NCBI GenBank assembly: GCA_030625885.1
Contig: DAOUPZ010000004.1
Coordinates: forward strand, 1-64,000
Direction: 5' to 3'
Origin: Clostridia bacterium
Lineage (GTDB): Bacteria; Bacillota; DAOUPZ01
Length of the DNA: 64,000 nt
Position numbers and translations under genes: made by a program. Each line of letters opens with the position of its first letter. Positions within the stretch are counted from its first letter, which is position 1. The notes beneath the pieces are model-generated. The model did not search any database, was not told the origin of the DNA, and worked only from the letters and a program-made list of their open reading frames with translations. This document shows, piece after piece, positions 17,142 through 46,292 of this stretch.

Positions 17142-17308
17142 ACATTAGGTATGGTTATGCTGGAAGGCAGCTTATCGCGTCGATGACCTCAGTAATATCA
17201 CATATTATCCCGTCATACTTCATGAGTACCACCTTACTATATTGTACAAACTTTTTCAGCTTAAAAGATAACTGGAAGCATAACCATACCTAAGTACAAA
17301 CCTAACAT
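17142..17308 (+). repeat. 148-bp inverted-repeat element, copy A
   Basis: Core 17145-17293 is bounded by a perfect 17-bp inverted repeat (TTAGGTATGGTTATGCT at 17145-17161; complement at 17277-17293). Inside each arm lies a GGA triplet facing a GGA triplet, then an inner helix region. The single-stranded-looking interior TTATCGCGTCG and ACTTCATGAGTA is conserved in copies B (40292) and C (46128). Conservation extends outward to ACATTAGG and GTACAAACCT. No ORF. All three close copies have the same orientation. Confidence 0.85.
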
Positions 17309-17323
17309 AAAAACAATTTTATT

Positions 17324-17349
17324 AAAAAGGCCAGGCAATTATGCCTGGT
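17324..17349 (-). terminator. trp operon terminator overlapping the trpA stop
   Basis: Minus-strand hairpin CCAGGCAT/TTGCCTGG followed by CCTTTTT. The trpA stop codon lies in the loop side of the hairpin, so translation to the end of trpA would enter the terminator stem. Confidence 0.85.
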
Positions 17350-18139
17350 CTAATGCTTTTCTGAGCGACAACACAAAATCATAAACCTTCTCTCGCATCT
17401 CCTCAACACGCTTACTGCTTTCCATTTGTTTTACAATCGCACTCCCCACAATAAACCCTTCTGCTAAATGCTTGAGTTTCTTGATGGATTCCGGCCCGGA
17501 TATCCCAAAACCAATGGCGCGAGGCAAAGCCGTGGCTTCTTTGACTTCATCCATAAAATCTTGTAATTTATTATGAAAAGTTTGGCGCATACCGGTCACA
17601 CCCATAGAAGAAACACAATAAACAAATCCCTGCGCCTCGTTGACAATCCTTGCAATTCGCTCACCGGAAGTGGGTGCCGCCAGTGGAATCATATTGATCC
17701 CGTAATGCTTAGCTAATGCTGCCAATTCGGTCCGCTCTTCCAAAGGCAGGTCGGGAACAATGATGCCATCTACCCCTGCGGCAACAATATTCTTGATAAA
17801 CCGCGCCTGACCGTACTTAAATATGGAATTGAAATAAACCAGCAATATCAGGGGAATCTCTGTATCCTGGCGGATAGCAGCTGCCAGTTCAAGAACTGTC
17901 TGAATACATGTTCCTGCTGCCAGTGACCGCTGCGCAGCAGCTTGAATAATCGTTCCATCCGCCAAAGGATCCGCATAGGGAATCCCCAGTTCTATAATAT
18001 CTGCCCCGCCATCTACCATTGCCAGAACGATATCTTTTGTCGCCTCCGGGTTAGGATCCCCTGCTACCACAAAAGGAATCAACGCTTGACGCTTCGCAGC
18101 TTGCAACGCTTGAAACTTCTTATCTATTCTATTTTCCAT
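17339..18139 (-). CDS. trpA: Tryptophan synthase alpha subunit
   Basis: Cleaves indole-3-glycerol phosphate to indole and glyceraldehyde-3-phosphate and channels indole to TrpB. The catalytic Glu is in [10 protein letters not shown] and the catalytic Asp in the following [17 protein letters not shown] and GFGISG (phosphate binding) are intact. Start ATG at 18139 gives 266 aa, the normal length, has GGGGAGAAG upstream and overlaps trpB by 11 bp, implying translational coupling. A longer frame from 18208 lies within trpB. It is the last gene of the trp operon. Confidence 0.97.
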
Positions 18140-19328
18140 TTTCTTCTCCCCCCAATACTTTAGCAACCGTTTCCACATCTTTGTCGCCTCGACCCGATAG
18201 ATTGACAATTATGATTTCTTCTTTAGCCGTTTGCGGTGCAAACTTCATAGCATAAGCAATAGCATGGGCACTTTCCAAAGCCGGAATAATACCTTCGATT
18301 TCCGCCAGCGTTTGAAAACCCGCAATGGCTTCATCATCTGTAACAGCCACATATTCTGCCCGCCCTGATTGATGATAATACGCATGCTCGGGACCAATAC
18401 CAGGATAATCCAAACCAGCGGATATAGAGTAAACCGGATCAATTTGTCCCTCTTCATTCTGCAGCAAATAGGTCATCATGCCATGCAGCACCCCGACTGT
18501 GCCGCCATTAATAGATGCGGCATGAAGTGGTGTATCGATCCCTTTGCCAGCTGCTTCCACACCGATCATCCTAACCGTTTTATCCTCATAGAAAGGATAA
18601 AATAGTCCCATGGCATTACTGCCCCCGCCGACACAGGCAATCAAATACTCCGGCAGCCTTCCTTCCTGCTCTAATATTTGCGCTTTCGCTTCCTGGCCGA
18701 TAATTTTCTGAAAATCACGTACCATTGATGGATAAGGATGCGGCCCGACAACCGAACCAATAACATAAAACGTATCTTCCACCCGCGCGACCCATGTCCT
18801 GATCGCTTCACTCGTTGCGTCTTTTAACGTACCTGTCCCTGCTTCCACAACCTTTACTTTTGCCCCCAGCAGCTTCATCCGAAAAACATTTAAACGCTGC
18901 CGCTCGACATCTTCCTTCCCCATATATACTTCACATTCCAGACCGAACATGGCACAAACCGTAGCCGTCGCCACCCCATGCTGGCCGGCTCCCGTTTCCG
19001 CAATAATTCTTTTTTTACCCATGCGCCTGGCCAAGATCACCTGTCCCAATACGTTATTTATTTTATGCGCGCCGGTATGGTTCAAATCTTCTCTTTTTAA
19101 ATATATTTTTGCCCCGCCCAGTTTCTCTGTCAATCGTTTGGCATAATACAAGGGTGATGGTCTGCCCGTATATTCTCTTAAATACATCATATACTCATCA
19201 TAAAACTTATTGTCTTTTACACATTTTTGATATTCTCTTTCTAATTCCAGCAAAGCATTCATGACGGTCTCCGGTACATACTGCCCCCCGAAAACACCAA
19301 ATCGCCCCTGTTTTTGTGCTATAGACAT
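18129..19328 (-). CDS. trpB: Tryptophan synthase beta subunit
   Basis: PLP enzyme that condenses indole with serine. The 399-aa TrpB1-type protein has the PLP lysine in [11 protein letters not shown], the GQHGVATA segment, and the C-terminal GGGSNAMG phosphate cradle. It lies 19 bp after the DAHP synthase gene and overlaps trpA by 11 bp. The trpB-trpA pair ends the operon. Confidence 0.98.
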
Positions 19329-19347
19329 TCGATCTCCACCTTTCTAA

Positions 19348-20160
19348 TTATCCTATATGCTTCAGCATCACGTTTGCAGCACTCATTTGCTCCATTAAGC
19401 GGCTAAATTCCATAAAATCCAGTGATTGCGCCCCGTCAGACAATGCCTCCTCCGGATTAGGATGGACTTCTACCATAATCCCGTCCGCTCCAGCAGCCAA
19501 AGCCGCTTTGGCAAGGGGCGCTACCAGTTCACGCCGCCCGCCAGCGTGACTGGGGTCAACGATAATTGGCAAATGACTGAGGTTTTTTACAGCCGGTATC
19601 GCACTGATATCCATCGTATTCCGGGTATAGGTTTCAAACGTTCTAATCCCTCTTTCACAGAGGATCACATTAGAATTTCCCTCGAGCAGTATGTACTCTG
19701 CAGCACATAACCATTCTTCTATGGTTGCACAAAGGCCCCTTTTCAAAACAACCGGCTTCTTGCTTTTCCCTACTTCGGTAAGCAAGGAGAAATTATGCAT
19801 ATTGCGAGAACCAATTTGTAAAGCATCCGCATATCGGACTACCCGTTCAACATCTCTGACATTCATGACTTCCGTTATGACGCTAAGACCCGTTTCTTTC
19901 CCCACGCTTTGCAGGATCTTCAGTCCTTCCAACCCCAGGCCTTTAAAACTATAGGGTGAAGTCCGCGGCTTGAAAGCACCACCGCGCAATATTTGTACAC
20001 CCAGTTTTTTGATATGGCAAGCCGTTTGATAAAGCTGCATCTCGCTTTCCACAGCACACGGCCCCGCAACCACCGTTAATTCACCGTTTCCGATCAGAGA
20101 ATTACCAATTTTTACGATGCTATTTTCTGATTCAGATTTTCTATCCACCCGTTTCATCAT
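19348..20160 (-). CDS. aroF: 3-deoxy-7-phosphoheptulonate (DAHP) synthase
   Basis: First enzyme of the shikimate pathway (phosphoenolpyruvate plus erythrose-4-phosphate). The 270-aa type I-beta (KDO8P-synthase-like) form has GPCAVES at about 36-42, [17 protein letters not shown] and [20 protein letters not shown]. It lacks the N-terminal ACT-like or chorismate mutase regulatory domains seen in some relatives, so feedback control is not expected from sequence. It starts inside the 3' end of trpF (20-bp overlap) and sits between trpF and trpB, which places entry into the aromatic pathway under tryptophan-responsive T-box control. Confidence 0.94.
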
Positions 20161-20767
20161 ATTCCCTCACTTTCTCCACAAAATGCAGCATTTTATTAAA
20201 ATCCTTGCTGCCATCTTCCTCTACGCCGCTGCTCACATCTACAGCAAAAGGCCTCACTTTAATGATTGCTTTCTGCACATTTTCTTCATTTAGTCCCCCT
20301 GCTAAAATAATCTTGTGCTGCATACTGACTGAATGCAGTAAATCCCAGTCAAATGCCATCCCTGTTCCCCCATAAGATACAGGATGATAGCGATCCACTA
20401 CGAATCCATCTACATGATATTTCGTCATTGCTTTTAGACTGTCTTTATCCTTAATCCGCAGCGCTTTCCACACCACAGGCCCTGCTTTTAAGCAATAATC
20501 AGGTGATTCTTCGCCATGCAGCTGCACAATATCCAGATGGCAGTAAGACGCAATCTCTTTTAACTCATTTAATGGATGATTCACAAACACACCCACCTTT
20601 TTAATCGCCGGTGATAAATTCGCAGCCGCTTCCTTTACCCAGTCAGGAGAAACCTTACGGGAGCTTTCCGCAAAAACAAAGCCCGCATAGGCTATTTGTA
20701 GTTTATTTGCCCATAATATATCCTGCTGGTGCTTTAAACCGCATATTTTAATGGCTGTCAAGGTCAA
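20141..20767 (-). CDS. trpF: Phosphoribosylanthranilate isomerase
   Basis: Converts phosphoribosylanthranilate to CdRP. The 208-aa TIM barrel has IKICGL at the N-terminus (catalytic Cys), VQLHGEE, and DVSSGVEE near the C-terminus. The start appears to be TTG at 20767 (AAAGG 5 nt upstream, inside trpC) or a second TTG two codons later; no ATG is available. It overlaps trpC by 20 bp and the DAHP synthase gene by 20 bp. Confidence 0.95.
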   Translation of the reverse strand: MTLTAIKICGLKHQQDILWANKLQIAYAGFVFAESSRKVSPDWVKEAAANLSPAIKKVGVFVNHPLNELKEIASYCHLDIVQLHGEESPDYCLKAGPVVWKALRIKDKDSLKAMTKYHVDGFVVDRYHPVSYGGTGMAFDWDLLHSVSMQHKIILAGGLNEENVQKAIIKVRPFAVDVSSGVEEDGSKDFNKMLHFVEKVREYDETGG

Positions 20768-21539
20768 CGCATCCTTTCAATTCTCTTACTTTTTCTCTGA
20801 TGGAAGGCGCTCTCATAAAGGCTTCCCCAATCAGTACCGCCTTGACACCCAGTTTTTGCAGAAAGACAATATCTTCCCGCTGATTGATCCCGCTTTCACT
20901 GACAACCAATACTTCCCTGGGAATATATGAAATAAGTTTTTCCGTCGTTTGGAGTGAAGTAGAAAAAGTTTTTAAGTCCCGGTTATTAATACCCATTATT
21001 TTAGCGCCTGCAGACACGGCCCTGTCAATTTCTTCTTTTGAATGAACTTCGACCAGCGAACTCATCCCTAATTGATGGGAAAGCTGAATAAGCTGTGACA
21101 GCATTTTGTCATCAAGAATTCTTGCAATGAGCAAAATAGCATCCGCTCTTAATACTCGTGCCTGGTACACTTGATAAGGTTCTAAGATAAAGTCTTTACG
21201 CAAAAGGGGCAGTGATACCGCCTTATGAATATCCGACAAATAGCGCTTTTGTCCCTGAAAAAACCTTTCTTCAGTCAATACTGAAACAGCGTTAACATGA
21301 CACACTTCGTACGTTTGGGCAAGTTCTACGGGATTAAAATCTGCTTTAATAAGTCCCTTTGATGGTGACGCCTTTTTTACCTCACCAATCATAGCCATTT
21401 CCACTGTTGTTGAAAGACTATGATAAAAGTCTCTGGGAACAGGTACATCATCCAGTCGCTTTATGAGTTCAGCCAAAGGCTGCTGTGACTCTTCTATAAT
21501 AATTTGTTTTTTCTGGTGCGCAACAATATTAGCTAACAT
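20748..21539 (-). CDS. trpC: Indole-3-glycerol phosphate synthase
   Basis: Closes the indole ring from CdRP. The 263-aa TIM barrel has IGEVKKASPSKGLI near residue 52 (catalytic Lys), LLRKDFILEPYQV, MGINNRDLKTF and VVSESGI. ATG is preceded by GAGGAAGG and overlaps the trpD end by 11 bp. The following trpF is a separate gene, not a trpC-trpF fusion. Confidence 0.97.
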   Translation of the reverse strand: MLANIVAHQKKQIIIEESQQPLAELIKRLDDVPVPRDFYHSLSTTVEMAMIGEVKKASPSKGLIKADFNPVELAQTYEVCHVNAVSVLTEERFFQGQKRYLSDIHKAVSLPLLRKDFILEPYQVYQARVLRADAILLIARILDDKMLSQLIQLSHQLGMSSLVEVHSKEEIDRAVSAGAKIMGINNRDLKTFSTSLQTTEKLISYIPREVLVVSESGINQREDIVFLQKLGVKAVLIGEAFMRAPSIREKVRELKGCVDLDSH

Positions 21540-22557
21540 CCTTCCTCACCCCCTGACTATATACAATCAGTTCCTCCAACTTGGTCTTTGCTCTACCTGA
21601 ATCAATCATTGCCGCAGCTAATTTTACACCTGCAGACAGCGAATCAACTTTTTTCCCTACATATAAAACAGCGGCGCTGTTGAGAAGAACAATATCCCGC
21701 GCTGCGCCTCGTTCTCCCTCTAAAACACGGTTAATTATTCTCGCATTCTCCTGTGGTAACCCCCCCGCTAGCTGGTGTGGTTTGACAAACGAAATCCCTA
21801 ATTCAACCGGGTTGAGTTGATACGTTTTCAACTTCCCATCACGTAATTCTGTTACCTTGGTACATGTTGTCGTCGTGATTTCATCCATACCGTCCCGCCC
21901 GTGAACAACCATTGCTCTTTCCAGCCCGATATTCTTTAATACCTCAGCCATAATTTCCGTCAATGCCGGATCAAAAACACCCAGTAAATGCCCCTGAATA
22001 TCAACCGGATTAATTAACGGACCTAACATATTAAAAATGGTACGAAAACCCATTTCCTTACGCGGCAAACCAACATGCTTCATGGCACAGTGAAAACTAG
22101 GCGCAAATAAAAAGCAAATATTAATTTCCGTAAGACATCGCTTCACTTCATGGGGTTCAAGGTAGATATTGATCCCCAGTTCTTCCAATACATCCGCACT
22201 CCCGCTGCTGCTGGACACCGAACGGTTACCGTGTTTAGCAACAGATACCCCTGCAGCTGCTGCCACAAAGGAACAGGCGGTGGAAATATTAAAACTGTTG
22301 CTGCAATCTCCCCCTGTGCCGCAGGTATCCACAACATAGCGATTTTCAAGTACCATTCGCTCTGTTTTCTGCCGTAAAACAGATACCGCTGCTGTTATTT
22401 CTTCAATCGTCTCCCCTTTCATCTTTAATGCTGTCAGGAATGCGGCAATCTGAGCCGGTGTACTTTCCCCCGTCATAATCATTTCCATGGCGTTTTCCAT
22501 TTCATCGCTCTGCAAACTAACTTGTTTTATTAATTTTTCAGTGAATTCTCTCAGCAT
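21529..22557 (-). CDS. trpD: Anthranilate phosphoribosyltransferase
   Basis: Transfers phosphoribose from PRPP to anthranilate. The 342-aa protein has the VDTCGTGGD glycine-rich loop (about residue 80), NISTACSFV, KHGNRSVSSSSGSADVLE and GRDGMDEIT magnesium and PRPP motifs. Its ATG shares a nucleotide with the trpG stop (TAATG), a typical translational coupling site. It is not fused to trpG. Confidence 0.97.
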   Translation of the reverse strand: MLREFTEKLIKQVSLQSDEMENAMEMIMTGESTPAQIAAFLTALKMKGETIEEITAAVSVLRQKTERMVLENRYVVDTCGTGGDCSNSFNISTACSFVAAAAGVSVAKHGNRSVSSSSGSADVLEELGINIYLEPHEVKRCLTEINICFLFAPSFHCAMKHVGLPRKEMGFRTIFNMLGPLINPVDIQGHLLGVFDPALTEIMAEVLKNIGLERAMVVHGRDGMDEITTTTCTKVTELRDGKLKTYQLNPVELGISFVKPHQLAGGLPQENARIINRVLEGERGAARDIVLLNSAAVLYVGKKVDSLSAGVKLAAAMIDSGRAKTKLEELIVYSQGVRKDVS

Positions 22558-23135
22558 TAATTCTCATCTCCTTTTATCTCCAAAAAGTTTTTTATAATCA
22601 TTATTCCCTCTTCAGTCATAATGGACTCCGGATGAAACTGCACCCCATAGATCGGTAACTTTTTATGTTTTAATCCCATTATTTCCCCTTGCTGCGTCTG
22701 AGCCGTAATCTCCAAAACCTCAGGCAACGATTGCTGATCCACTATGAGAGAATGATATCGCGCCCCACGAAAAGGATTAGGGAGCCCAGCAAAAATACCT
22801 TGTCCATTGTGAATAATGGGAGATGTTTTGCCATGATACAGGTTCTGAGCCTGGACAACCCGGCCGCCAAACACGTCACCAATACATTGGTGCCCCAGGC
22901 AAACACCTAAAATGGGTATCTCTTGTCCAAAACGTTGAATGGTCTCCCTGCTGATGCCCGCATCTTTGGGATAACAAGGGCCAGGAGAAATAATGATCTT
23001 TCCCGGTTGCAACTGAGTAATTTCAGCAGTGGTTATCTCATTGTTCCTTACTACTTTTACCTCCGGATTTATTTGCCCTACAAATTGGTACAGATTATAA
23101 GTAAATGAATCATAATTATCAATGATTAAGATCAT
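22557..23135 (-). CDS. trpG: Anthranilate synthase glutamine amidotransferase component
   Basis: Class I glutaminase that supplies ammonia to TrpE. The nucleophile is Cys in PILGVCLGHQCIG and the catalytic pair lies in VQFHPESI. N-terminal LIIDNYDSFTYNL is diagnostic. Start ATG at 23135 has AAAGGAG at 8 nt; a GTG three codons upstream overlaps the Shine-Dalgarno. At 192 aa the length is usual. Such subunits are often shared with aminodeoxychorismate synthase (PabA); no pabB is in the window. Confidence 0.96.
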   Translation of the reverse strand: MILIIDNYDSFTYNLYQFVGQINPEVKVVRNNEITTAEITQLQPGKIIISPGPCYPKDAGISRETIQRFGQEIPILGVCLGHQCIGDVFGGRVVQAQNLYHGKTSPIIHNGQGIFAGLPNPFRGARYHSLIVDQQSLPEVLEITAQTQQGEIMGLKHKKLPIYGVQFHPESIMTEEGIMIIKNFLEIKGDEN

Positions 23136-23151
23136 TCCTATCACTCCTTTC

Positions 23152-24726: not shown

Positions 24727-24764
24727 AAAAAAAGCACTTCTCCCCTTATGGGGCGAAATGCTTC
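24727..24764 (-). terminator. trp leader terminator 1 (distal)
   Basis: Minus-strand stem AAGCATTTC/GAAGTGCTT with inner CCCC/GGGG and seven T residues. It is preceded by its own T-box core GGGTGGCACAGCG (24769-24784), so the leader carries two complete antiterminator/terminator choices in series. Confidence 0.9.
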
Positions 24765-25034
24765 ATTTCGCTGTGCCACCCATCTATAAATAACACAAAA
24801 ATCATAACTAGTCAATCTCTTTCAGGTACAGAAAAGATAAACCCTTTCGATACCCTATCTTTTTAACGTCAGAATCACGTCCACAGGTACTCTCGTAGAT
24901 TTCCCCTGGCTTCTCACGGGACCATTCAACATTCTCGCGTGTATTGGGTTCCCACCATCCCCAACTCTCTGAAACGTACTCAAATGCTTACTCTCCCCGG
25001 TCACAGAATTTATATGCTTTTGATATTGTTATTG

Positions 25035-25063: not shown

Positions 25064-25094
25064 TGATATGTTATTATTTTTCATCTTACAATTT

Positions 25095-25149
25095 ATGGAA
25101 CAACGGGGACACACCGCTCGTACCTCACGGAATGTCCCCATTTTTGCAT
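25095..25149. repeat. 55-bp GGGGACA palindrome, copy 2
   Basis: Palindrome with arms around ACGGGGACACACCG and CGGAATGTCCCCAT, ending TTTTTGCAT. It lies about 30 bp upstream of the trp -35 box, followed by a mosaic zone. Confidence 0.8.
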
Positions 25150-25265
25150 TAAGGTTTTTATCTTTTTCGTTCCTCGTTCAGCAGCCATAGGCTGCGTTCT
25201 TTCCTCATTCCTCGTCTTTTAATCTTTTCCCACCTTCTACCTTCTACCTGCTACCTGCTGCTATC
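25150..25265. repeat. Mosaic repeat zone upstream of the trp promoter
   Basis: Contains TTCGTTCCTCGTTCAGCAG, the perfect hairpin GCAGCC-ATA-GGCTGC, TTTCCTCATTCCTCG, and CTACCTGCTACCTGCTG words. The same word order occurs at 38229-38310 and 38860-38960, and in reverse at 46026-46090 and 55345-55425. Confidence 0.65.
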
Positions 25266-25272
25266 CTTTAAC

Positions 25273-33302: not shown

Positions 33303-34235
33303 ATGTTACGCATTCTAGAACTCATCTTTCCACTGTATATTGTCATGTTTGTCGGTTATTATTTCAGACAATCCGGTCATTATACGAATGAAGCCGATAA
33401 ATTTCTGAATTACTTTGCTTATCATTTGCTGTTGCCGGCAACTATTTTTCTTAAAGTTGCACAGCCACAAGAAGGTACATCCACATTAAATAGTCATATT
33501 TTTATCCTTTACATTTTATCGCTGCTCTTAATATCCATTGTAGGGATCATCATACTGGCTGTCCAAAAGAAACAGATTGCCCCTAATATTATCTTTGTTG
33601 TTAATATGCTAAGGGGAAATATTATCTATATGGGCTTTCCTTTAATTCTCTATGGTCTAGGCGAAGAAAGCTTTGCAATTGGTGGTATTCTCGGCGCGCT
33701 TTTTTCTCCCCTTAACATTATCATTGCCACCAGCGTCATTTTGCTTTTCAATAAAAATGAACAAGAAACAACTGGATTTACGAAAATTTTAAAGAAAATT
33801 ATCCGTGATCCTCTCTTTCTTGCGACTGTTTTAGGCATCATCATTGGCAAATTACATATTCCTTTATTTATATTAGATAACGCGTTAGGCCTTTTTGCCA
33901 AAATATCTATGCCACTGTCTTTACTGATCATCGGCGGCAACTTAAAATTAAACTACTTTTATCGCATGAATCTGGATACTTTTCTCATATGTTTGGGAAA
34001 ATTAGTTGTCCTCCCTTTAATTTTCATAGGCTTCTCTTTCATATTCCCGGTAGAGCCTCAATTACTAAAAATCGGTATTCTTCTAAGCGCTATGCCTTCT
34101 GGTGTCTCCAATCTGGTATTAGCTAAACAATATCAGCTGAATGAAAAGGCTGCAGTGGAAGGCATCATTGCCACCACAAACTTATCGCTTATTACCCTTC
34201 CTCTATGGCTCTATGTACTGGAAAATTTTATTTAA
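33303..34235 (+). CDS. AEC (auxin efflux carrier) family transporter
   Basis: A 310-aa membrane protein with about ten helices in two halves. Family features are the N-terminal FPLYIVMFVGYYFRQSG, the inter-half loop, and NLVLAKQYQLNEKAAVEGIIATTNLSLITLPLW near the C-terminus. Bacterial AEC proteins export or import dicarboxylates and related anions; the substrate cannot be read from sequence. ATG follows an AAGAAGGGA site. The gene is alone, with the SIMPL gene upstream and a repeat zone downstream. Confidence 0.9.
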   Translation: MLRILELIFPLYIVMFVGYYFRQSGHYTNEADKFLNYFAYHLLLPATIFLKVAQPQEGTSTLNSHIFILYILSLLLISIVGIIILAVQKKQIAPNIIFVVNMLRGNIIYMGFPLILYGLGEESFAIGGILGALFSPLNIIIATSVILLFNKNEQETTGFTKILKKIIRDPLFLATVLGIIIGKLHIPLFILDNALGLFAKISMPLSLLIIGGNLKLNYFYRMNLDTFLICLGKLVVLPLIFIGFSFIFPVEPQLLKIGILLSAMPSGVSNLVLAKQYQLNEKAAVEGIIATTNLSLITLPLWLYVLENFI

Positions 34236-34290
34236 GAGCAAGAACGGGGACACACCGCTCGTTCCTCACGGAATGTCCCCATTTTTGCAT
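34236..34290. repeat. 55-bp GGGGACA palindrome, copy 3
   Basis: Begins at the stop codon of the AEC transporter (GAGCAAGAACGGGGACA) and ends TGTCCCCATTTTTGCAT. It is followed by the conserved tail module. Confidence 0.8.
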
Positions 34291-38079: not shown

Positions 38080-38099
38080 TTTAGTTCCTCCTTTATGTA

Positions 38100-38345
38100 A
38101 GTTATTTACAGCTTCGCTGTATTAGAGCAGGTAGCAACCAGCAGGTAGCAGGTAGGTCTCTAACTGATATTTCCTGATTTTTTCTTCTGCATTCTACCTT
38201 CTACGTCTTTTATATTTTGTTTTTTCATTCCTCGTTCAGCAGCTATAGGCTGCGCTCTTTCCTCATTCCTCGTGTTTTAATCTTTTCCTACCTGCTACCT
38301 GCTTCTATCATCTTTCCCTTTAAGCTGATAACTAATAGCTGATAG
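38100..38345. repeat. Mosaic repeat zone upstream of pepV
   Basis: Contains CAGGTAGCAACCAGCAGGTAG, TCTAACTGATATTTCCTG (shared with about 13495 in reverse), CGTTCAGCAGCTATAGGCTGCG, TTTCCTCATTCCTCGTG, CTACCTGCTACCTGCTT and AGCTGATAACTAATAGCTGATAGCTAA. No gene is supportable here. Confidence 0.6.
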
Positions 38346-38499
38346 CTAAAATATTATCCAAAAATCATAAAAAACCTGCAACTTTTTCATTTTACTAGGA
38401 AATATTACATCATTTTTGTCTGTTACCATAATATACTAACAATAAAAATATGTTTTTTAATATTTTTAGGTTTCAAGTGTTTTAAACAGGGTAAATATT

Positions 38500-38787
38500 T
38501 AACAAGAAGATAATAGATAACCGTCTTGACCCATCGCAAGAAAGTCCCGATTTCTGTTATTGCTTGACCGAAAAGAAGTAACTGAAAGTAAGTAATTAAA
38601 TGCTTTACAGAAAGTTGCAAGAAAAGCAAATCATCAACTGAAAGTTGGTTTTCTGGTAAGACTGGAAAAGAATGAGAGGATCTATTCAAGTCGTTTATGA
38701 AGGAAGAAACAAACGGGTCAAGAGCTTATATTAAGGACGGTTATCTATATCGATAAAGGGTGTACCAAATGGTACACCCCTTTTATT
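38500..38787 (+). ncRNA. Candidate structured non-coding RNA, class unknown
   Basis: The plus strand forms a closed multibranched structure. Outer stem: 38513-38525 with 38736-38748 (13 bp, ATAGATAACCGTC). Coaxial stem: 38526-38532 with 38715-38721 (TTGACCC). Inside are a stem 38608-38613/38650-38655 holding two hairpins (38615-38629 and 38635-38647), a two-part hairpin 38660-38692, and smaller helices in the 5' part. An intrinsic terminator (GGGTGTACC/GGTACACCC plus TTTT, 38758-38784) follows 10 nt after the outer stem. No coding frame with a ribosome-binding site is present on this strand. I could not match it to RNase P, tmRNA, 6S, SRP or a known riboswitch. Confidence 0.6.
38758..38787 (+). 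terminator. Terminator of the candidate ncRNA
   Basis: Perfect 9-bp stem GGGTGTACC/GGTACACCC, loop AAAT, followed by CTTTTATTT. Confidence 0.85.
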
Positions 38788-38799
38788 TGAGTCTTTTGC

Positions 38800-38986
38800 T
38801 TTCAGCCTTTAGCTTTGAATCTTCAGCCAATCTTTTGTTTTTCATCGTTCAGCGACCAAAGGGAGCGCTCGTTCCTCGTTCAGCAGCCATAGGCTGCGTT
38901 CTTTCCTCATTCCTCGTGTTTTAATCTTTCCCTACCTGCTACCTGCTGTTCGCTACCTGCTATTTTATCTTTCTACTTTCACCGAT
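38800..38986. repeat. Mosaic repeat zone after the candidate ncRNA
   Basis: Contains CTTTCAGCCTTTAGCTTTGAATC, TTCAGCGACCAAAGGGAGCG, the perfect hairpin GCAGCC-ATA-GGCTGC, TTTCCTCATTCCTCGTG and CTACCTGCTACCTGCTG, in the same order as in other zones. Confidence 0.65.
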
Positions 38987-39041
38987 ATGCAACAACGGGG
39001 ACACACCGCCTGTACCTCACGGAATGTCCCCGTTCTTGCAT
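38987..39041. repeat. 55-bp GGGGACA palindrome, copy 4
   Basis: The most symmetrical copy: starts ATGCAACAACGGGGACA and ends TGTCCCCGTTCTTGCAT. Confidence 0.82.
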
Positions 39042-39120
39042 ACATTTCTATAACTCCTTTTTTAACGATAGTTAAACCATCGCTCAACTATCGTTTAACA
39101 ATGGTTAAACAACCACTAGC
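39042..39120. repeat. Tail module with AACGATAGTT inverted repeats, copy 2
   Basis: Same tail as at 34291 and 48132, with the AACGATAGTT/AACTATCGTT inverted repeat. The following 90 bp are TTTATCTTTTCC and TACCTGCT words up to the SDR stop codon. Confidence 0.75.
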
Positions 39121-39211
39121 CACTTGCATCTTTTAATCCTTTATCTTTTCCTAACTACTAACTACTGTCTTTTATTCTTTCCCTACCTGCTAATGCCTGC
39201 CTGCTGCTTTC

Positions 39212-39991
39212 TTATGGCCCAGCTGTTACGCCACCATCAACTGACCATGATGCACCTAATACAAATGATGCCATATCCGATGCTAAAAAACAAATGACAG
39301 CGGCAACCTCTTCCGCTTTTCCCATCCTATCAATCGGGTAATCTTTGAGAAGCGCCTGTAAATATACTTCCTTGGTTTCACCTTTTTTGACCGCCGCCTC
39401 AATTTTCCGCTCAACCATAGGCGTATGAATCTCGCCTGGACAAACGCAATTAACACGAATATTATCTCTAGCGAGATCTAATGCCAACGCTTTGGTAAAC
39501 AGGGTAATTGCCCCTTTTGATGCACAATAGGTGGTACAATTGTAATTACCTTGTAATCCGGCATCAGACGAAATATTAATAATAGCCCCCCCTTCTGCTT
39601 TACGCATCTGAGGGATAGCATACTTGCACATGAAAAAGGTTCCTTTAACATTCACATCCATGATCCGATCGTATACGACCTCTTCTACTTCATCAATCGT
39701 ATGCTCAATGAAAACACCAGCACAATTAATCAAAATATCTAATCTCCCAAATTCTGATAACAGCGTTTGTACAACCCTGTTACATTCCGACGGATATGAA
39801 ATATCTGCGGTTACCAATGTAAGCTGTTGATCCCAATCTTCTAATTCCATCAACGCCTGACGTCCTTCATTTTCAGACACACCAACAATTAGCACTTCTG
39901 CCCCACCTTTTAAAAGCATCTTTGTCGCTTCCAGTCCAATCCCCGAGGTTCCCCCTGTCACCAAAGCTACCTTACCTTTAAAATCATACAT
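39212..39991 (-). CDS. Short-chain dehydrogenase/reductase (SDR)
   Basis: A 259-aa classical SDR. The Rossmann motif is VTGGTSGIG near residue 12, NCAG lies near 85, and the active site has NISSDAG (Ser) with YCASKGA (Tyr and Lys). The C-terminal CFLASDMASFVLGASWSVDGG is the family standard. Start ATG 39991 has AAGGGGGG at 6 nt. The GTG seven codons upstream is less likely. The substrate is not predictable: FabG-like and sugar or hydroxysteroid dehydrogenase relatives share these motifs. It is isolated between repeat zones with no pathway context. Confidence 0.9.
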   Translation of the reverse strand: MYDFKGKVALVTGGTSGIGLEATKMLLKGGAEVLIVGVSENEGRQALMELEDWDQQLTLVTADISYPSECNRVVQTLLSEFGRLDILINCAGVFIEHTIDEVEEVVYDRIMDVNVKGTFFMCKYAIPQMRKAEGGAIINISSDAGLQGNYNCTTYCASKGAITLFTKALALDLARDNIRVNCVCPGEIHTPMVERKIEAAVKKGETKEVYLQALLKDYPIDRMGKAEEVAAVICFLASDMASFVLGASWSVDGGVTAGP

Positions 39992-40106
39992 GATATTCCC
40001 CCCTTTTTTCACCTACCACTTAACTAAACACTATGCGTATAGTCCCACTATAAGACCTAAAAAACGCCTTAATAGTTATTTGTACAATTTCAATACCATA
40101 ATCTAT

Positions 40107-40235
40107 TCAGTTGACAGCTTATTCAGTTGACAGTTGATAGTGGACAGTTAAAGGATAGGGATAAGATCGCTCTCTGCGTTCGCTGAAAGAGGAACGACCT
40201 CTCCCTTTGGTCGCTGAACGATAAAAGATTAAGAA
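40107..40235. repeat. Mosaic repeat zone upstream of the SDR gene
   Basis: Includes CAGTTGACAGCTTATTCAGTTGACAG, the 25-bp repeat also found at 17019-17043 (here 40125-40149), and the two modules GATCGCTCTCTGCGTTCGCT and CTCCCTTTGGTCGCTGAACG, as at 15128-15199. Confidence 0.65.
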
Positions 40236-40291
40236 TAGAAGGAAGAGGGAAGGAAAAAAATGATTTAGCTATCAGCTTAAAGAAAAACATT

Positions 40292-40455
40292 ACATTAGGT
40301 ATGGTTATGTTGGAAGACATCTTATCGCGTCGCTGGCATCAGTAATATCTTATATCAACCATCATACTTCATGAGTAAAAACTTTCAATATTGTACAAAC
40401 TTCTTTAGCTTAGAAGATGACTGGAAGCATAACCATACCTAAGTACAAACCTCAC
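40292..40455 (+). repeat. 148-bp inverted-repeat element, copy B
   Basis: Core 40295-40442 (148 bp). The left arm has TTAGGTATGGTTATGTT, where copy A has ...GCT; the right arm keeps AGCATAACC, so the change is a wobble-compatible G-U pair at RNA level. The inner helix reads CATCTT/AAGATG. Interior TTATCGCGTCG and ACTTCATGAGTA are conserved. Confidence 0.85.
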
Positions 40456-40509
40456 GAAAAATTTATACTCTCTATAATCTAAAGACTGTTTTATGATATT
40501 ACAACAAAA

Positions 40510-40534
40510 ATACCTGGCATAACTTTGCCAGGTA
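40510..40534 (-). terminator. Terminator of the unknown secreted protein gene
   Basis: Minus-strand stem ACCTGGC/GCCAGGT followed by ATTTTTG, 13 nt after the stop codon. Confidence 0.8.
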
Positions 40535-40546
40535 CCCTTCATCCCA

Positions 40547-41374
40547 TTATTCTGTCACTTTCTCATACCTAAAATCCCTTGGATTCCAAACATACACATC
40601 TTCTCTCATCCTTCGTTTAACTATCTCAAACCCTTCTAAAGGCGGCAATGCCAGCGTCTGTTTTTTACTAACTACCTCTGTCGTCTCTTCGTTTACAACG
40701 ATACTTCCATCCGGCTCAATGGTATATTCTCTTTTCGTAATCTCTCCCCGCCACCGTGAAGGATTGTCAGGATTCTCCCACTTTTCATTCCAATAGCTTT
40801 GTTCGAAAGTTACCACCATAAAAACGTCATCTATTCTCTTTTTCTTGTCATTCCAAGCATATAAATATTCTGTACGACTTTCGAAAAAAGCACCCAACCG
40901 TTCTTGATAGTCCTCTTTTACCACCAGTACAGGCACATCCAGTGTCGGTATCTTCACCACTTCTAATCCGGACACATTAACAAAATACAAGGTGCGGATT
41001 AACCTGTAACCTTCTTTCATACGCGCAAAAATAGCCACCATACCACGATCGGGCGGTAAAGAAATCCCCACGATCAATTCTTCATCTCCCACGGGTAATA
41101 AATCTGCAAACAAAAATTGTGTTGTCAAGGGCTGTAGTTCATACCACTCTGAATGATAGGTCATTTTAAGTACAGCCTTCACGATCTCGTCCTCAGCCGA
41201 TTTCTTTATAGGGCCTTGATCACTTTTTAGCTGTTGGACAAGGCGTTCATTCAACACATCACTCCCCAACCCGCTGTCAGCCAACGTTTTGGCTTCCTGC
41301 CAATCCATACCAAACAGCATGACAACGATAAACGACAAACTCAAGATAAATATATGATACCATTTGTATTTCAT
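40547..41374 (-). CDS. Uncharacterised membrane-anchored protein
   Basis: A 275-aa protein I do not recognise. It has one N-terminal hydrophobic segment (about residues 5-23, no lipobox cysteine), a mainly beta-rich extracytoplasmic region with LLPVGDEELIVGISLPP and many aromatic residues near the C-terminus (SYWNEKWENPDNPSRWRGE). Start ATG 41374 was chosen because the hydrophobic segment follows directly; AAAGGGGG lies 11 nt upstream. A terminator follows it. It is separated from the L,D-transpeptidase gene by a palindromic repeat element. Confidence 0.65.
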   Translation of the reverse strand: MKYKWYHIFILSLSFIVVMLFGMDWQEAKTLADSGLGSDVLNERLVQQLKSDQGPIKKSAEDEIVKAVLKMTYHSEWYELQPLTTQFLFADLLPVGDEELIVGISLPPDRGMVAIFARMKEGYRLIRTLYFVNVSGLEVVKIPTLDVPVLVVKEDYQERLGAFFESRTEYLYAWNDKKKRIDDVFMVVTFEQSYWNEKWENPDNPSRWRGEITKREYTIEPDGSIVVNEETTEVVSKKQTLALPPLEGFEIVKRRMREDVYVWNPRDFRYEKVTE

Positions 41375-41398
41375 ACCTCGCCTTTCCCCCTTTCTACA

Positions 41399-41563
41399 TA
41401 AGGCATATGAAAGAAAATAACAAGTCAAAGATACGACGGATATTTTGTGTCAGACAAAGAAACAGGTTCCGTTGATAGTTGGTTCTATCAGCGGGTTCTG
41501 TTGATGCAGTATGGCGCAAAATAGACTAGCATACTGACTTATTATTTTTTTGAAGATGCCTAA
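41399..41563. repeat. TTAGGCAT-ended palindromic element, copy 2
   Basis: A 165-bp element with inverted ends TAAGGCAT...AAAATAACAAGTC and GACTTATTATTTTTTTG...ATGCCTAA. The interior TTTTGTGTCAGACAAAGAAA and CAGGTTCCGTTGAT is the reverse complement of copy 3 (53699). Compared with that copy it carries about 29 extra bp containing GATAG-AACCAA-CTATC. Confidence 0.75.
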
Positions 41564-41642
41564 TCCCTTCAACAACATTATACGATCTTGTTGTAGTAAA
41601 TTATGTTATCCAGCAACTAGAGAATGGGTGGAAATAACGGCG

Positions 41643-42404
41643 TTATTTTCTAATTTGTACGGTCGTTCCTACCTGCACCCATTCATAAAGCTCTTCTACC
41701 GCTTCATTTCTCATTCTTACACATCCCCCCGAAGCATGCTTACCAATAGATTCAGGCTCATTTGTACCATGAATACCATATTTCAATCCCTTAGGCGCCC
41801 GTTCATCCGGCTTATTGACACGTTGATCTCGCTCATTAGGAACCTTCAACCCCATCCAGCGAACCCCTAACTGAGCATCCTCAGCCTTTTCCAGGGGTGT
41901 TTTAGTTTTATTCGCAATCGCAAATACCCCTTCCGGCGTATAATGTGGTTTTTCTCCCGTAGCCACATCATAGACTTTAACAATATCCCCATTTTGATAA
42001 AAAAAGAGTTGATTCTCACTTTTGTCAATAACGATACGATCTGACTGACTCACGGGAGCAGGACAAACTGTCAGAATTTTAAAAACAGGCTCTAACTGAA
42101 CAAAATAAAGATCATTCTTCCCTTTCAGACGAAGACCTTTTTGAATCATTGTTCCAACTAAAGGCGGTTGCGTCTTTACTTTATTTTGTAATGTTTCAAC
42201 TACCTCTAAGTTTCGTTCTGGCAGTTTGATTTTTTGTCTATTATTGGAATCACTGTTCTGATAAACCATACGCCCTCTATTAAAATAAATCTCATGTGTT
42301 TCATCCTGAAAGATGGCCTCACCTAAAGCCATATTTTGATCGTAATAGCCGAAACCAATAAACCCCAATAATAAAATAATCCCAATCAAAATGATTTTCT
42401 TCAT
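41643..42404 (-). CDS. L,D-transpeptidase (YkuD domain)
   Basis: A 253-aa exported enzyme that forms 3-3 cross-links or anchors in peptidoglycan. N-terminal membrane segment (about residues 3-20), a variable region of about 115 aa without LysM or peptidoglycan-binding repeats, and a C-terminal YkuD domain with the catalytic signature HGTNEPESIGKHASGGCVRM (His, Ser-Gly-Gly-Cys-Val-Arg). VIDKSENQLFFYQNGDIVKVY opens the domain. It lies upstream of a palindromic element and 50 bp from the hairpin that ends the ABC operon. Confidence 0.93.
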   Translation of the reverse strand: MKKIILIGIILLLGFIGFGYYDQNMALGEAIFQDETHEIYFNRGRMVYQNSDSNNRQKIKLPERNLEVVETLQNKVKTQPPLVGTMIQKGLRLKGKNDLYFVQLEPVFKILTVCPAPVSQSDRIVIDKSENQLFFYQNGDIVKVYDVATGEKPHYTPEGVFAIANKTKTPLEKAEDAQLGVRWMGLKVPNERDQRVNKPDERAPKGLKYGIHGTNEPESIGKHASGGCVRMRNEAVEELYEWVQVGTTVQIRK

Positions 42405-42455
42405 TTTATTTCACCCTCTTGATTTATTTTCCCACTTACTACTTACCTTTTGCCA

Positions 42456-42494
42456 CATACTAAAAAACAGCCAAAGGCTGTTTTTTAGTATGTA
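42456..42494. terminator. Long perfect palindrome: bidirectional terminator
   Basis: ACATACTAAAAAACAGCC-AAA-GGCTGTTTTTTAGTATGT is a perfect palindrome with T-runs on both strands, 26 nt after the ABC permease stop. It ends the sigma/anti-sigma/ABC operon. It has the same AACAGCC/GGCTGTT stem as the flhO leader hairpin. Confidence 0.88.
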
Positions 42495-42519
42495 TCATTT
42501 TGACAGGGTTATTCGATGT

Positions 42520-43353
42520 TTATATTTCTTTTGCTTTAAAAATACGCGTTGCCATAAAAACACACCCTAGAACATATATCAAGACATAAACCATCATCCA
42601 ATGGCTGGGCTGTTTTAGACTCATAAAAGGCCCCATTGTATTTAAGATGCTCAGTGAAGGGGTTTGCGAAAAAATGACATTAATCATTTGACGAAAGATG
42701 GTATCCACAGGCATAATCAGACTCGACACAATCCCAACATTAACAGCCGCTGTTTTTTCAATGGCATAACCAATCTGCTCGATCATGCCCCCAATCATTC
42801 CAAACATATAGAGAATAAACACCGCTACCCCATTAGCAACTGTCGGCAAAAATGTCGTTCCCCAAAAAGTAACTGCCAGCAAAACAAGAGGCTGCAGAGT
42901 AAATAACAAATACCCGGATACCATTCCCCCTAATCTTAAATCCAACATGATATCCACCAAAAAGTAAATGCTATAATATATAAATGCTGAATATAACATG
43001 AGCATGACCGCATAACCCATAAACTTACCAACAATGATCTCCCCACGACGAACCGGCTTCGAGATAATAGATATCATCACCCCATTATCCACCTCACTGG
43101 AAATGGCGCCAACGCCGGCAAAAACAGCAAACAGACAAACGATGAAACTGGCAAAATATAAACCCATAGAAATTAATTGGGAATAAGCCATCAATTTTAC
43201 TATCTGCTCTGTCATATCACCCATTCCTTTAGCATTAATAAAATGAAGTCCTGTTCCATAGAGGACTAAGTAAATGACCGTCAAAATAAAGCTCACCAGC
43301 AATATTTTTTTACTCAAAAGTTCCTTCAGTGTTAAACGAAAGATCGGCCCCAT
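42520..43353 (-). CDS. ABC-2 type transporter permease
   Basis: A 277-aa integral membrane protein with about six helices. The family feature GAISSEVDNGVMISIISKPVRRGEIIVGKF lies near residue 85. It follows the ATPase gene by 3 bp and must form the transporter with it. Last gene of a four-gene operon that begins with a sigma factor. The exported substrate is unknown; peptide, drug or lipid export is typical of this class. Confidence 0.9.
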   Translation of the reverse strand: MGPIFRLTLKELLSKKILLVSFILTVIYLVLYGTGLHFINAKGMGDMTEQIVKLMAYSQLISMGLYFASFIVCLFAVFAGVGAISSEVDNGVMISIISKPVRRGEIIVGKFMGYAVMLMLYSAFIYYSIYFLVDIMLDLRLGGMVSGYLLFTLQPLVLLAVTFWGTTFLPTVANGVAVFILYMFGMIGGMIEQIGYAIEKTAAVNVGIVSSLIMPVDTIFRQMINVIFSQTPSLSILNTMGPFMSLKQPSHWMMVYVLIYVLGCVFMATRIFKAKEI

Positions 43354-43356
43354 CTC

Positions 43357-44259
43357 TTACGCCTCCTTCATAAATCGAATAAACAGCTCTTCTAAACTCT
43401 GCTGTTTATAAGATACTTCATAGATCTGTACGCCGCCTTCTACCAGCGTTTCTACCAGGGGCGGAACCTCAACTGGATTGTCAATCAACGCCGTTATTCG
43501 TGTTCCCTCAAGATGAACGGTCTCATTCATCTTTCTTAAAATGGCTATCAATGGCTCCCTGATATCATTCACTCGAATGGTAACTTCCGTACCACTGCAA
43601 AGCAATTCCTGCAAATTGCCGTTGGCAACAACCTGTCCCTCTTTTATGATCGCAACTTCATCACAGACCATTTCCACTTCTGACAGAAGATGGCTGTTCA
43701 AAAAAATAGTCTTGCCTTCATGTTTTAAATCGGCAATAATTTCACGTACTTCCCGTCTGCCTACCGGATCCAAGGCTGAAGTAGGCTCATCTAAAAAAAT
43801 CAGATCCGGATTGGGGAGCAGCGCACTGGCTAATCCTAAACGCTGCTGCATCCCTTTACTGTACGTTTTAATCCGATATTTCCCTTTTCCCGACAATCCC
43901 ACCCGTTCCAACACGTTTTCAACCTGCATTTTAAGTTGTTTACCGCTCATTTTATACAATGAAGCATGAAATTCCAACAGTCCGCAGCCCGTCATCCATT
44001 CCTGATAACGAAATAACTCCGGCAAATAGCCAATACGGTGCCTGACATTCAAATCACCCAGGGGCTTTCCTAAGAGAAAAGCGCGGCCGCCTGTGGGATA
44101 TAGCAATCCCATTAATGTTTTAACAAAGGTGCTTTTTCCGGCTCCATTGGGTCCTAAAAAGCCAAACACTTGCCCCTCGGAAACCGAGAGGCAAATGTCT
44201 TTACAACCTGCATTATTATGATATACTTTCGTCAAGTTATGTGTTTCTATAGCCGGCAT
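43357..44259 (-). CDS. ABC transporter ATP-binding protein
   Basis: ATPase of about 300 aa. Walker A GPNGAGKST at residues 36-44, a Q-loop region, signature YSKGMQQRLGLASALL (in place of LSGGQ, as in ABC-2 exporters), Walker B DLIFLDEPTSALD and H-loop NSHLL. A C-terminal extension of about 80 aa ends in the EELFIRFMKEA helix. Start ATG 44259 lies 4 nt after the anti-sigma stop codon with GGAG 8 nt upstream, so translation is coupled. Confidence 0.93.
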   Translation of the reverse strand: MPAIETHNLTKVYHNNAGCKDICLSVSEGQVFGFLGPNGAGKSTFVKTLMGLLYPTGGRAFLLGKPLGDLNVRHRIGYLPELFRYQEWMTGCGLLEFHASLYKMSGKQLKMQVENVLERVGLSGKGKYRIKTYSKGMQQRLGLASALLPNPDLIFLDEPTSALDPVGRREVREIIADLKHEGKTIFLNSHLLSEVEMVCDEVAIIKEGQVVANGNLQELLCSGTEVTIRVNDIREPLIAILRKMNETVHLEGTRITALIDNPVEVPPLVETLVEGGVQIYEVSYKQQSLEELFIRFMKEA

Positions 44260-44263
44260 TCTA

Positions 44264-45376
44264 TCACTCCATTTCACTTGCAATATTCAGCGCTTTCTGC
44301 AATGTTAATTTCCCGCCGTTAATAACGCGAATCACACCATCATCCAGCCACATCAAACTGCCATAACTCCCATTATTATCTTCCATAAATACACCTTGCT
44401 TGCCGTTAACAGATACTTCCCGGGCATTACCATTAGTATCCGGTATCAGTAAAGTATGTTCTAAATCCGTCACACCCCGTAATTGTTTTTTCAAAGAAGG
44501 TGGTAAAATCGGAATATCCAAAAGCGCATCGCGTACTTCAATAATATCAACATCCTTCGGAACCCGAATTTCCGGTGCTTTAGTCTGCATCACATCTAAA
44601 TAATCATTTTCATTGGAATAACAAGCTTGAATACTGTCTCCAATACTCACTGAAAACGTCTTATTGTCAATTTCCTGAGGTAGTAAATGATTACTGCCTA
44701 AAGCTGTCAGCATTTCATTGGCTTTCTCCACATCCAGCGTAAAATCAATAGTTGTTCCCGATACTTTGGAAAAATCATCTTTCCATCCTTTAATGCTTTC
44801 GTCAGGCAGCTTAACTGGCAATGTGCTTACACTTAATGCTTCTTCCCGGGTAATATCCTTATATTCCGTCTCATTGCTCACATTGATCTTACCCATTTCT
44901 TCTAAATCAATTTCACCGACACCATCTCTTATTTTTTGCGAAAGATCATACATATCATGTTCATTAAAAGCAATCGTCTGTACTTTTTCCGCTCTAAAGA
45001 TGGTCAATAATTCGGCAGCTGCGGAACGTACCGGGCTAAAACTTAAGGAACCGATCAATATAACTGCCACTGATGCCGCACCTATCCATTTTTTAAATTT
45101 ATTATTCATTCTTATACCTTCTTTCCTATTTTCTTTTTCTGCTGTATGATGCGATTGAAAATGCGCCCATGCCTTTTCACTATCAAAATTGGTTTTCTCT
45201 ATACCGCACTGGTATTTTCCCAAACACTCATGGACTAACGATTGGTTTTTTCTTAATTCTTCTAATTTCTGTTGGCATGGTATGCAGGATGCTAAATGAT
45301 TTTCTATCTCTTTTCGTTCTTCTTCTCCTAACGCACCGTCTAAATAGGCTTGGAGTATTCCTTCATCATAACACAT
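44264..45376 (-). CDS. Zinc-finger anti-sigma factor-like membrane protein
   Basis: A 370-aa protein. N-terminal zinc-binding anti-sigma motif H27-x3-C31-x2-C34 (ENHLASCIPCQQK), one transmembrane helix (about 98-115), then a large extracytoplasmic region rich in polar beta structure with no enzyme motif that I can identify. Its ATG overlaps the sigma gene stop by one base (TAATG). The pairing strongly suggests it sequesters that sigma factor and senses an envelope signal. The long outer domain distinguishes it from minimal anti-sigma proteins of about 100-200 aa. Confidence 0.85.
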   Translation of the reverse strand: MCYDEGILQAYLDGALGEEERKEIENHLASCIPCQQKLEELRKNQSLVHECLGKYQCGIEKTNFDSEKAWAHFQSHHTAEKENRKEGIRMNNKFKKWIGAASVAVILIGSLSFSPVRSAAAELLTIFRAEKVQTIAFNEHDMYDLSQKIRDGVGEIDLEEMGKINVSNETEYKDITREEALSVSTLPVKLPDESIKGWKDDFSKVSGTTIDFTLDVEKANEMLTALGSNHLLPQEIDNKTFSVSIGDSIQACYSNENDYLDVMQTKAPEIRVPKDVDIIEVRDALLDIPILPPSLKKQLRGVTDLEHTLLIPDTNGNAREVSVNGKQGVFMEDNNGSYGSLMWLDDGVIRVINGGKLTLQKALNIASEME

Positions 45377-45909
45377 TAACTTTCTCCTCCTCTCTGCTCC
45401 AGATATATCTTTTTGAATTTATCCTGAGCACGTGCCAAAATGGTACCGACAGAGTTAACATTCATCCCAGTTACTGTGGCAATTTCTTGATACTGATAAC
45501 CGGAAAATTTCAGGAGTAAGCAGGTACGATCTCTTGCGGATAATTGCTTGAGGATACTTCTCACTTCCCGCACTTCCTGATTGCGTACGACCACTTCTTC
45601 AAAGGAAATCATTTTAGCCATTCGCTCCATCTCACAGTGATCTTCTCTTTTTTGCCTGCTTTTTTCACTACGCAAATGGTTGTAAGCTAAGTTAGTTGCC
45701 ACCTTAGCAAGCCATCCTCCGATATTTGAAAAATCAGCAGGCGGCAACTGGTATAATTTCAAGAAAGCTTCCTGTGCCATGTCTTCTGCTAAAGATTGAT
45801 TCCCTACTAAATAATAAAGCTGACGGCATACAAAGGGATAGTAATTGTGAAATATTTGTTCAAAAGATTGTGATTCCGTTTTAATCATTGATTTGAGCTC
45901 AACGGCCAT
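45376..45909 (-). CDS. ECF-type RNA polymerase sigma factor
   Basis: A 177-aa extracytoplasmic-function sigma factor. Region 2 has FEQIFHNYYPFVCRQLYYLVG and DMAQEAFLKLY; region 4 has LSARDRTCLLLKFSGYQYQEIATVTGMNVNSVGTILARA (helix-turn-helix). Start ATG 45909 has a GGCAGGTGG site at 8 nt; a GTG four codons upstream is less likely. It is first of an operon with its anti-sigma factor and an ABC exporter, which may be its regulon. The target promoter was not identified. Confidence 0.93.
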   Translation of the reverse strand: MAVELKSMIKTESQSFEQIFHNYYPFVCRQLYYLVGNQSLAEDMAQEAFLKLYQLPPADFSNIGGWLAKVATNLAYNHLRSEKSRQKREDHCEMERMAKMISFEEVVVRNQEVREVRSILKQLSARDRTCLLLKFSGYQYQEIATVTGMNVNSVGTILARAQDKFKKIYLEQRGGES

Positions 45910-46019
45910 GGAAATTTCCACCTGCCTTCCTTCTAGCGTATCAACAGGCCCTGTTGACTGACTTCACATATATAACACAGTCTTTTGCATTTCTGTGACA
46001 TGATTTTTAAAAAAATTAA

Positions 46020-46095
46020 AAAATAGAGGGAAGAACGCAGCCTATGGCTGCTGAAAGATCGCTCCCTTTGGTCGCTGAACGAGGAACGATACAAA
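46020..46095. repeat. Mosaic repeat zone between the two sigma operons
   Basis: GAACGCAGCC-TAT-GGCTGCTG hairpin, GATCGCTCCCTTTGGTCGCT and GAACGAGGAACGAT words, directly before element copy C. Confidence 0.65.
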
Positions 46096-46127
46096 TATAA
46101 ACAAATAAAATATTAAGTAAAAACATG

Positions 46128-46292
46128 ACATTAGGTATGGTTATGCTGGAAGGAATCTTATCGCGTCGATGGTCTCAGGCACATCATATATCCACCATCA
46201 GACTTCATGAGTACTACATTTCTATATGCACAAACTTCTTTAGCTTAGAAGATTCCTGTAAGCATAACCATACCTAAGCATAAACCTTACAT
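46128..46292 (+). repeat. 148-bp inverted-repeat element, copy C
   Basis: Core 46131-46277 (147 bp) with the perfect 17-bp arms TTAGGTATGGTTATGCT and complement. The inner helix AGGAATCTT pairs perfectly with AAGATTCCT; compared with copy B (CATCTT/AAGATG) both strands have changed while pairing is kept. GATGG/CCATC forms a further inner stem. The right-arm GGA of copies A and B is TGT here. Confidence 0.85.

Follow-up and report, generated by a model that had tools for sequence, protein, structure and literature searches.

An intergenic family of long hairpin repeats with replication-fixed orientation in a Clostridia genome

A family of hairpin-forming repeats, each ~165 to 180 bp long, was found between the genes of a Clostridia bacterium, where it amounts to about 46 copies or fragments. 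The two ends of the element pair into one long hairpin whose outer helix covaries strongly among copies, the length is nearly constant across at least three subtypes with different loops, and the orientation is fixed relative to replication while the type of intergenic gap is chosen at random. We give an even chance to the reading that the element is a non-autonomous mobile repeat, similar to REPIN and BOX sequences, that propagated in hairpin form on the lagging-strand template. The analysis started from a 64,000-nucleotide stretch of contig DAOUPZ010000004.1 (assembly GCA_030625885.1), referred to as the window.

A first-pass annotation of the window had described three copies (A, B, and C), whose coordinates, arms, interior words, and lengths proved correct. 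The paired change from CATCTT/AAGATG to AATCTT/AAGATT that it had reported is real, as is the T-G pair in copy B. The inventory was too small, however, as a fourth copy lies in the same window (Table 1) and the family occupies about 46 places. The copies do point in the same direction, but the strand that is consistent with the biology is the opposite one, the reverse complement of what was written; the element is described here on that strand, termed the sense strand. The genome (3.1 Mb in 39 contigs, 98% complete, from a sporulating, Firmicutes-like organism) was searched with copy A by BLAST, giving 37 matching places; copy B matched with an E value of 6e-49 and copy C with an E value of 8.5e-41. 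A covariance model was built from 21 type-1 copies, as the first-pass annotation had proposed, and its search of the genome returned 35 copies with strong scores. The six type-3 copies, which are much more divergent, were located by reading intergenic DNA and by a shape search for the hairpin, and five truncated or deletion-derived copies complete the family. All sequence matches in the genome were the short element or its fragments.

Table 1. Coordinates of repeat copies and other features (window positions unless a locus and contig are named)
Feature	Coordinates	Strand	Type	Parts and remarks
Copy A	17140..17307	minus (sense strand)	1	hairpin 17145-17293 (149 bp); P1 arms 17145-17161 / 17277-17293; GGA loops 17162-17164 / 17274-17276; P2 17165-17173 / 17265-17273
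Copy B	40290..40456	minus	1	hairpin 40295-40442 (148 bp); P1 arms 40295-40311 / 40426-40442
Copy C	46126..46291	minus	1	hairpin 46131-46277 (147 bp); P1 arms 46131-46147 / 46261-46277; 3' internal-loop triplet GTA in place of GGA
Fourth copy (missed in the first pass)	55473..55621	minus	3	P1 GGAATAGGTATACT / AGTATACCTATTCC; TCC/TCC loop; core words AATGCTAAAAA and ACTCGCC
Type-1 copy with insertion (L065, contig C23)	79267-79560	minus	1	insertion contains CTCCGTAAAACTCTCACATTAATATGTGA
Copy between direct repeats (L055, contig C25)	87031-87196			direct repeats CTAAGAAATATAAACAAATGnGTnAGCATTCAAAG
Second Y1 homologue (L076, contig C4)	1486-1941			151 aa; HUH motif replaced (ILPIGFILLIEP)
REPIN-like repeat, ~55 nt	13421-13476, 25094-25149, 34235-34290, 38986-39041, 48076-48131			AACGGGGACACACCG ... 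CGGAATGTCCCCGTT
Other hairpin-like family	12650-12900, 41429-41650, 53446-53930			TTTAGGCAT ... ATGCCTAAA; inner hairpin CAGTATG ... CATACTG
Short-word mosaics	3293-3655, 13316-13560, 25157-25262, 38080-38420, 38690-39215, 55218-55470			words ACCTGCTACCTGC, GAACGAGGAACGA, CAACTGTCAACTG, AATTCATAATTC, CAAAGGGAGCG
T-box leader	24746-25013	minus		Rfam RF00230, 99.5 bits

On the sense strand, the outer arms (P1) form 14 to 17 bp, with the sequence TTAGGCATGGTTATGCT in type 1 and AATGGAATAGATATACT in type 3. A symmetrical TCC/TCC mismatch comes next, followed by a second helix (P2) of nine positions, of which two in type 1 are usually pyrimidine-pyrimidine (Y.Y) mismatches. The loop starts with a near-invariant AAGCTAAAGAA and ends with CGACGC or ACTCGCC; its conservation exceeds that of the flanks. 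The two TCC triplets of intact copies lie 108 to 113 nt apart in each of the three types despite the unlike loops, and perfect pairing of the arms extends about equally far although their sequences differ. Copies of type 1 are on average 72% identical to one another, those of type 2 67%, and those of type 3 73%; mean identity between types is 45 to 59%, and the best pair overall reaches 85%. Deletion derivatives and half copies are present, and one type-3 copy has a deletion in its loop.

The covariation check that the first-pass annotation had called for was carried out with column-pair counts and shuffles, and covariation of the outer hairpin was very strong, for one helix only. Among the 21 type-1 copies, read in the orientation of that annotation, both sides of a pair had changed in 47 cells, compared with 16.6 in shuffles, and sliding the partners by one to three columns left only 6 to 10 such cells. 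Across 35 copies there were 83 double-changed cells compared with 25.5 after shuffling, in an alignment that was fitted to the structure and hence leans towards it. An independent, gap-free count over the inner 14 P1 pairs of 39 copies gave 66 double changes; the expectation was 14.0 from shuffles and 28.8 when shuffling was restricted to within subtypes. When all column pairs were scanned, the strongest consistent signals lay along one anti-diagonal, which is that of P1 and P2. The inner helices P3 and P4 in the loop showed little or no covariation, and no inner helix was supported.

Nearest copies differ by 10 to 35% in the loop, and the arms change almost as fast but in pairs, with 63 double and 32 single-sided differences; the hairpin is kept in diverged copies. 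Because most copies thus look old, present activity of the family is probably low. Uncompensated P1 mismatches occur at ~2.5% per site, a rate similar to that of private mutations in the rest of the element (~2.6%), which are evenly distributed over its length (dispersion P = 0.48). These even rates fit copies that have been decaying since insertion and whose source lineages were under selection for the hairpin. Since private mutations are evenly spread, selection in situ is not proven, and the loop divergence together with the near-invariant words leaves room for it.

In a helix selected as RNA, G-U pairs should far outnumber A-C pairs. The inner 14 P1 pairs of 39 copies, read on the sense strand, comprised 519 Watson-Crick, 12 G-U, 9 A-C, and 6 other combinations. 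Under a fourfold excess of G-U over A-C, the probability of at least 9 A-C among these 21 cells, which are all that the comparison has, would be ~0.014. The tRNA stems in the same stretches had 52 G-U and no A-C, a contrast that may be inflated by the preference of ARAGORN for paired stems. Rfam searches at gathering and permissive thresholds gave no family match to the element, in line with the first-pass impression that it fits no RNA family. Because there is no clear G-U excess, no consistent promoter (see below), an orientation fixed by replication, and a set of unrelated housekeeping neighbors, the evidence leans towards DNA. We regard the pairing counts as moderate, not conclusive, evidence that the helix pairs as DNA.

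Orientation was assessed in ~20 kb fetched around each copy for the first 40 places. In all 40, the sense strand was the leading-strand side, defined by most of the coding (a share of 0.54 to 1.00) and by an intergenic GC skew above zero. Six added type-3 places agreed with the strand of their contigs, bringing the count to 46 of 46. Ten copies lie between oppositely directed genes, and all ten follow the leading strand. Classed by the directions of the flanking genes, 30 of the occupied gaps were same/same, 5 same/anti, 5 anti/same, and none anti/anti, and the background gaps of at least 200 nt numbered 145, 15, 32, and 7, respectively. Gap use thus matches the background, which indicates that gene context (5' or 3' ends) was not chosen, yet orientation is fixed. 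Both orientations are seen for other repeats of these stretches (13:23, 7:10, 5:6, and 2:3, with 2:9 for the GGGGACACACCG repeat). The leading strand holds ~92% of the coding sequence here, so that an element selected to be transcribed along with genes would have a probability of ~2% of reaching 46 of 46 by co-orientation alone.

The neighboring genes are unrelated to one another and have varied housekeeping functions (e.g., trpB, ftsZ, spoIIE, sigH, glnS, typA, and folD), and no transposase appeared among the top 25 neighbor families listed per set. Many copies start a few to ~45 nt after the T-run of the upstream gene's terminator, many precede a second terminator-like hairpin, and AAAGTATAA-like boxes lie upstream of some. 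No consistent -35/-10 promoter was seen by eye upstream of the copies, and a small RNA (sRNA) with its own promoter was set aside on that basis. A general riboswitch or attenuator role for the next gene was also rejected, since five copies have no downstream sense gene and the neighbors are unrelated. A T-box leader in the window (Table 1) was recognized by Rfam.

Candidates for a mobilizing enzyme were sought in the genome. It has two Y1 transposase genes, and neither is near any copy, so neither was accepted as the cognate HUH transposase. One, a REP-associated transposase (RAYT) on contig C10 (L075), has its own flanking GGGACAGTCCC repeats and no element nearby. The other, a REP-type homologue (Table 1), stands alone, unlinked to repeats, and is probably not catalytic because its HUH motif is replaced. 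Tyrosine-recombinase searches gave four matches. No transposase gene or autonomous element carrying the element's ends was found in this 98% complete genome. No shared target duplication was visible by eye in the flanks of 40 copies, whose borders are not sharp. A simple recent MITE, with identical copies, target duplications, and a transposase with matching ends, was the case that the first-pass annotation had named as contrary to its reading; it is not what is seen here, where even the best pair is 85% identical, no target duplication was recognized, and no transposase has these ends. A separate REPIN-like repeat of ~55 nt (Table 1) is similar to the GGGGACAGTCCCC repeats that adjoin the RAYT gene on C10 and, judged by this sequence likeness, is probably the cognate REPIN of that RAYT.

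The search of related genomes that had also been proposed yielded no copies, either in the 60 nearest genomes or in a draw of 399 genomes from the phylum, under stricter filters, by which weak matches could be lost; in this comparison the class is represented by this genome alone. An exact-pattern scan of genome contigs gave four isolated matches, in proteobacteria and a myxococcote, which were judged to be chance. Viral contigs, plasmids, and phages gave no match.

Several known systems were compared with the element. The ERIC (IRU) sequences of enterobacteria are imperfect palindromes of ~127 bp with a conserved core between genes; the likeness in palindrome, core, and intergenic position is by description, and the host is unrelated. 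Integron attC sites have outer boxes of the form 5' RYYYAAC ... GTTRRRY 3' and accompany gene cassettes; they were rejected as candidates because the element's arms, GTTATGC ... GCATAAC, have the inverse order and the copies stand alone among housekeeping genes. IS200/IS605 elements and their non-autonomous derivatives form single-stranded DNA (ssDNA) hairpins with mismatches, as the element would, but they have a small hairpin near each end, whereas the two ends of the element pair together with no transposase inside. The orientation of IS200/IS605 elements, too, follows replication, because they leave and enter the lagging-strand template as single strands (PMC5371812). REPINs are REP doublets that form hairpins and are mobilized by RAYT transposases, and what counts in their spacer is how long it is and that it can fold into a hairpin, with compensatory changes common (PMC3116915). 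Like them, the element is intergenic and non-autonomous, numbers tens of copies or more, and has conserved ends in inverted order that form a single long ssDNA hairpin, with compensatory changes and a spacer of constrained length. It differs in its length (~165 bp, compared with ~80 bp for excised GI REPINs [PMC3116915]), its conserved loop words, and its absolute replication orientation. Because its ends lack a GTAG tag beside a short palindrome (alignments checked) and because no RAYT carries its ends, neither Y1 gene being flanked by copies, the element is filed apart from REPINs proper, although it would work like one. CGTC, the alternative REP tag, occurs within the loop side in type 1 and in most type-2 copies and is absent from type 3. 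The BOX, RUP, and SPRITE repeats of Streptococcus pneumoniae are likewise mostly under 200 bp, intergenic, in a member of the Firmicutes, predicted to form stem-loops, and present in tens to more than 100 copies (PMC3049150). Only 61 to 63% of them lie on the leading strand, mirroring the coding bias (PMC3049150), compared with 46 of 46 here. BOX and RUP both have target duplications, and BOX, compared by description, is modular (boxA/boxB/boxC), with a varying number of boxB units and a length that varies from copy to copy, unlike the near-constant spacing of the element.

According to the mobile-repeat reading, a strand that becomes single would fold, one end pairing with the other, into a long hairpin with mismatches, and the hairpin on the strand exposed in the lagging-strand template, the sense strand, would be recognized. 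The TCC/TCC loop, the Y.Y mismatches of P2, and the core words AAGCTAAAGAA ... CGACGC are the candidate features for protein recognition. Copying or movement of the element into other single-stranded stretches between genes at replication forks would then fix its orientation. Taken with the precedent of REPIN hairpins (PMC3116915) and the tie of IS200/IS605 orientation to replication (PMC5371812), such spread is the most economical account. From this we infer single-strand transposition, recognition of mismatches, and a putative trans-acting transposase that may since have been lost. Against it, the loop with its near-invariant words is more conserved than expected of a mere spacer, no transposase shares the element's ends, the ~2% chance of full co-orientation by transcription stands, and the pairing comparison has 21 cells. 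The first-pass annotation had favored selection for a fold over spread. The fold is indeed conserved while the sequence changes, with copies that are not identical and double changes well above shuffles, but the choice was a false one, since a hairpin, a constrained length, and compensatory changes belong to REPINs, which are mobile (PMC3116915).

That the covariation, the near-invariant words, and the constant length instead reflect a structured RNA, either a multicopy sRNA or a read-through RNA element whose hairpin and core words AAGCUAAAGAA / CGACGC are selected in a sense-strand transcript, is in our view doubtful. Co-orientation with most neighboring genes, the placement between an upstream terminator and a second terminator-like hairpin, and the AAAGTATAA-like boxes speak for a transcript, whereas the count of 12 G-U to 9 A-C, the lack of a consistent promoter, the unrelated neighbors, and the empty Rfam search speak against one; in addition, the same/anti gaps exclude a 5' untranslated region (UTR) role for five copies and the anti/same gaps a 3' UTR role for five others. 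Perfect replication orientation, DNA-like pairing statistics, a hairpin kept in diverged copies, and backbone gaps beside housekeeping genes would also suit a signal in the host's DNA, either a hairpin or a site bound by protein, that needs fork orientation, having spread long ago and been kept as useful, perhaps in lagging-strand initiation, fork restart, chromosome segregation, or nucleoid organization. Known oriented signals such as Chi and KOPS are short words, not 165-bp hairpins. With several copies truncated or deletion-derived, subtypes with different loops coexisting, and no copy in the other genomes searched, a host signal seems improbable. Covariation could also arise mainly from templated (quasi-palindrome) repair during replication, in which one arm is copied onto the other without selection. 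The paired pace of arm change and the lack of a clear G-U preference agree with this, but such repair would erase the TCC/TCC and Y.Y mismatches, which persist, and the arms are perfect up to a similar boundary in unlike sequences; we consider it highly unlikely as the main source.

Short palindromic repeats are commonly dismissed as junk or taken for RNA structures. The present family combines perfect replication orientation with DNA-like arm evolution, unlike other repeats in the same stretches, and so offers a testable case of a hairpin selected for ssDNA at the replication fork and not for RNA, one that points to a missing mobilizing enzyme. We suggest, tentatively and as a long shot, that it represents a class of long-hairpin repeats strictly tied to replication direction, either through a new form of ssDNA transposition, with an end-to-end mismatched hairpin and a non-RAYT enzyme acting in trans, or as a host signal of the lagging-strand template. 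The comparison of G-U with A-C and the orientation counts provide a cheap test for other repeat families.

Two copies outside the window have unusual surroundings or contents (Table 1). The type-1 copy at L065 carries an insertion of ~120 bp that itself looks palindromic, and at L055 a pair of imperfect direct repeats of ~45 nt encloses a copy together with the short repeats next to it; these direct repeats contain, on the other strand, a word like the type-3 core AAAACTTTGAATGCT. Within the window, another hairpin-like family was noted, two copies of which are 85 to 95% complementary to each other. Intergenic mosaics of short near-tandem words often adjoin the element, most of them in both orientations; they are reminiscent of the short tandem repetitive sequences of cyanobacteria.
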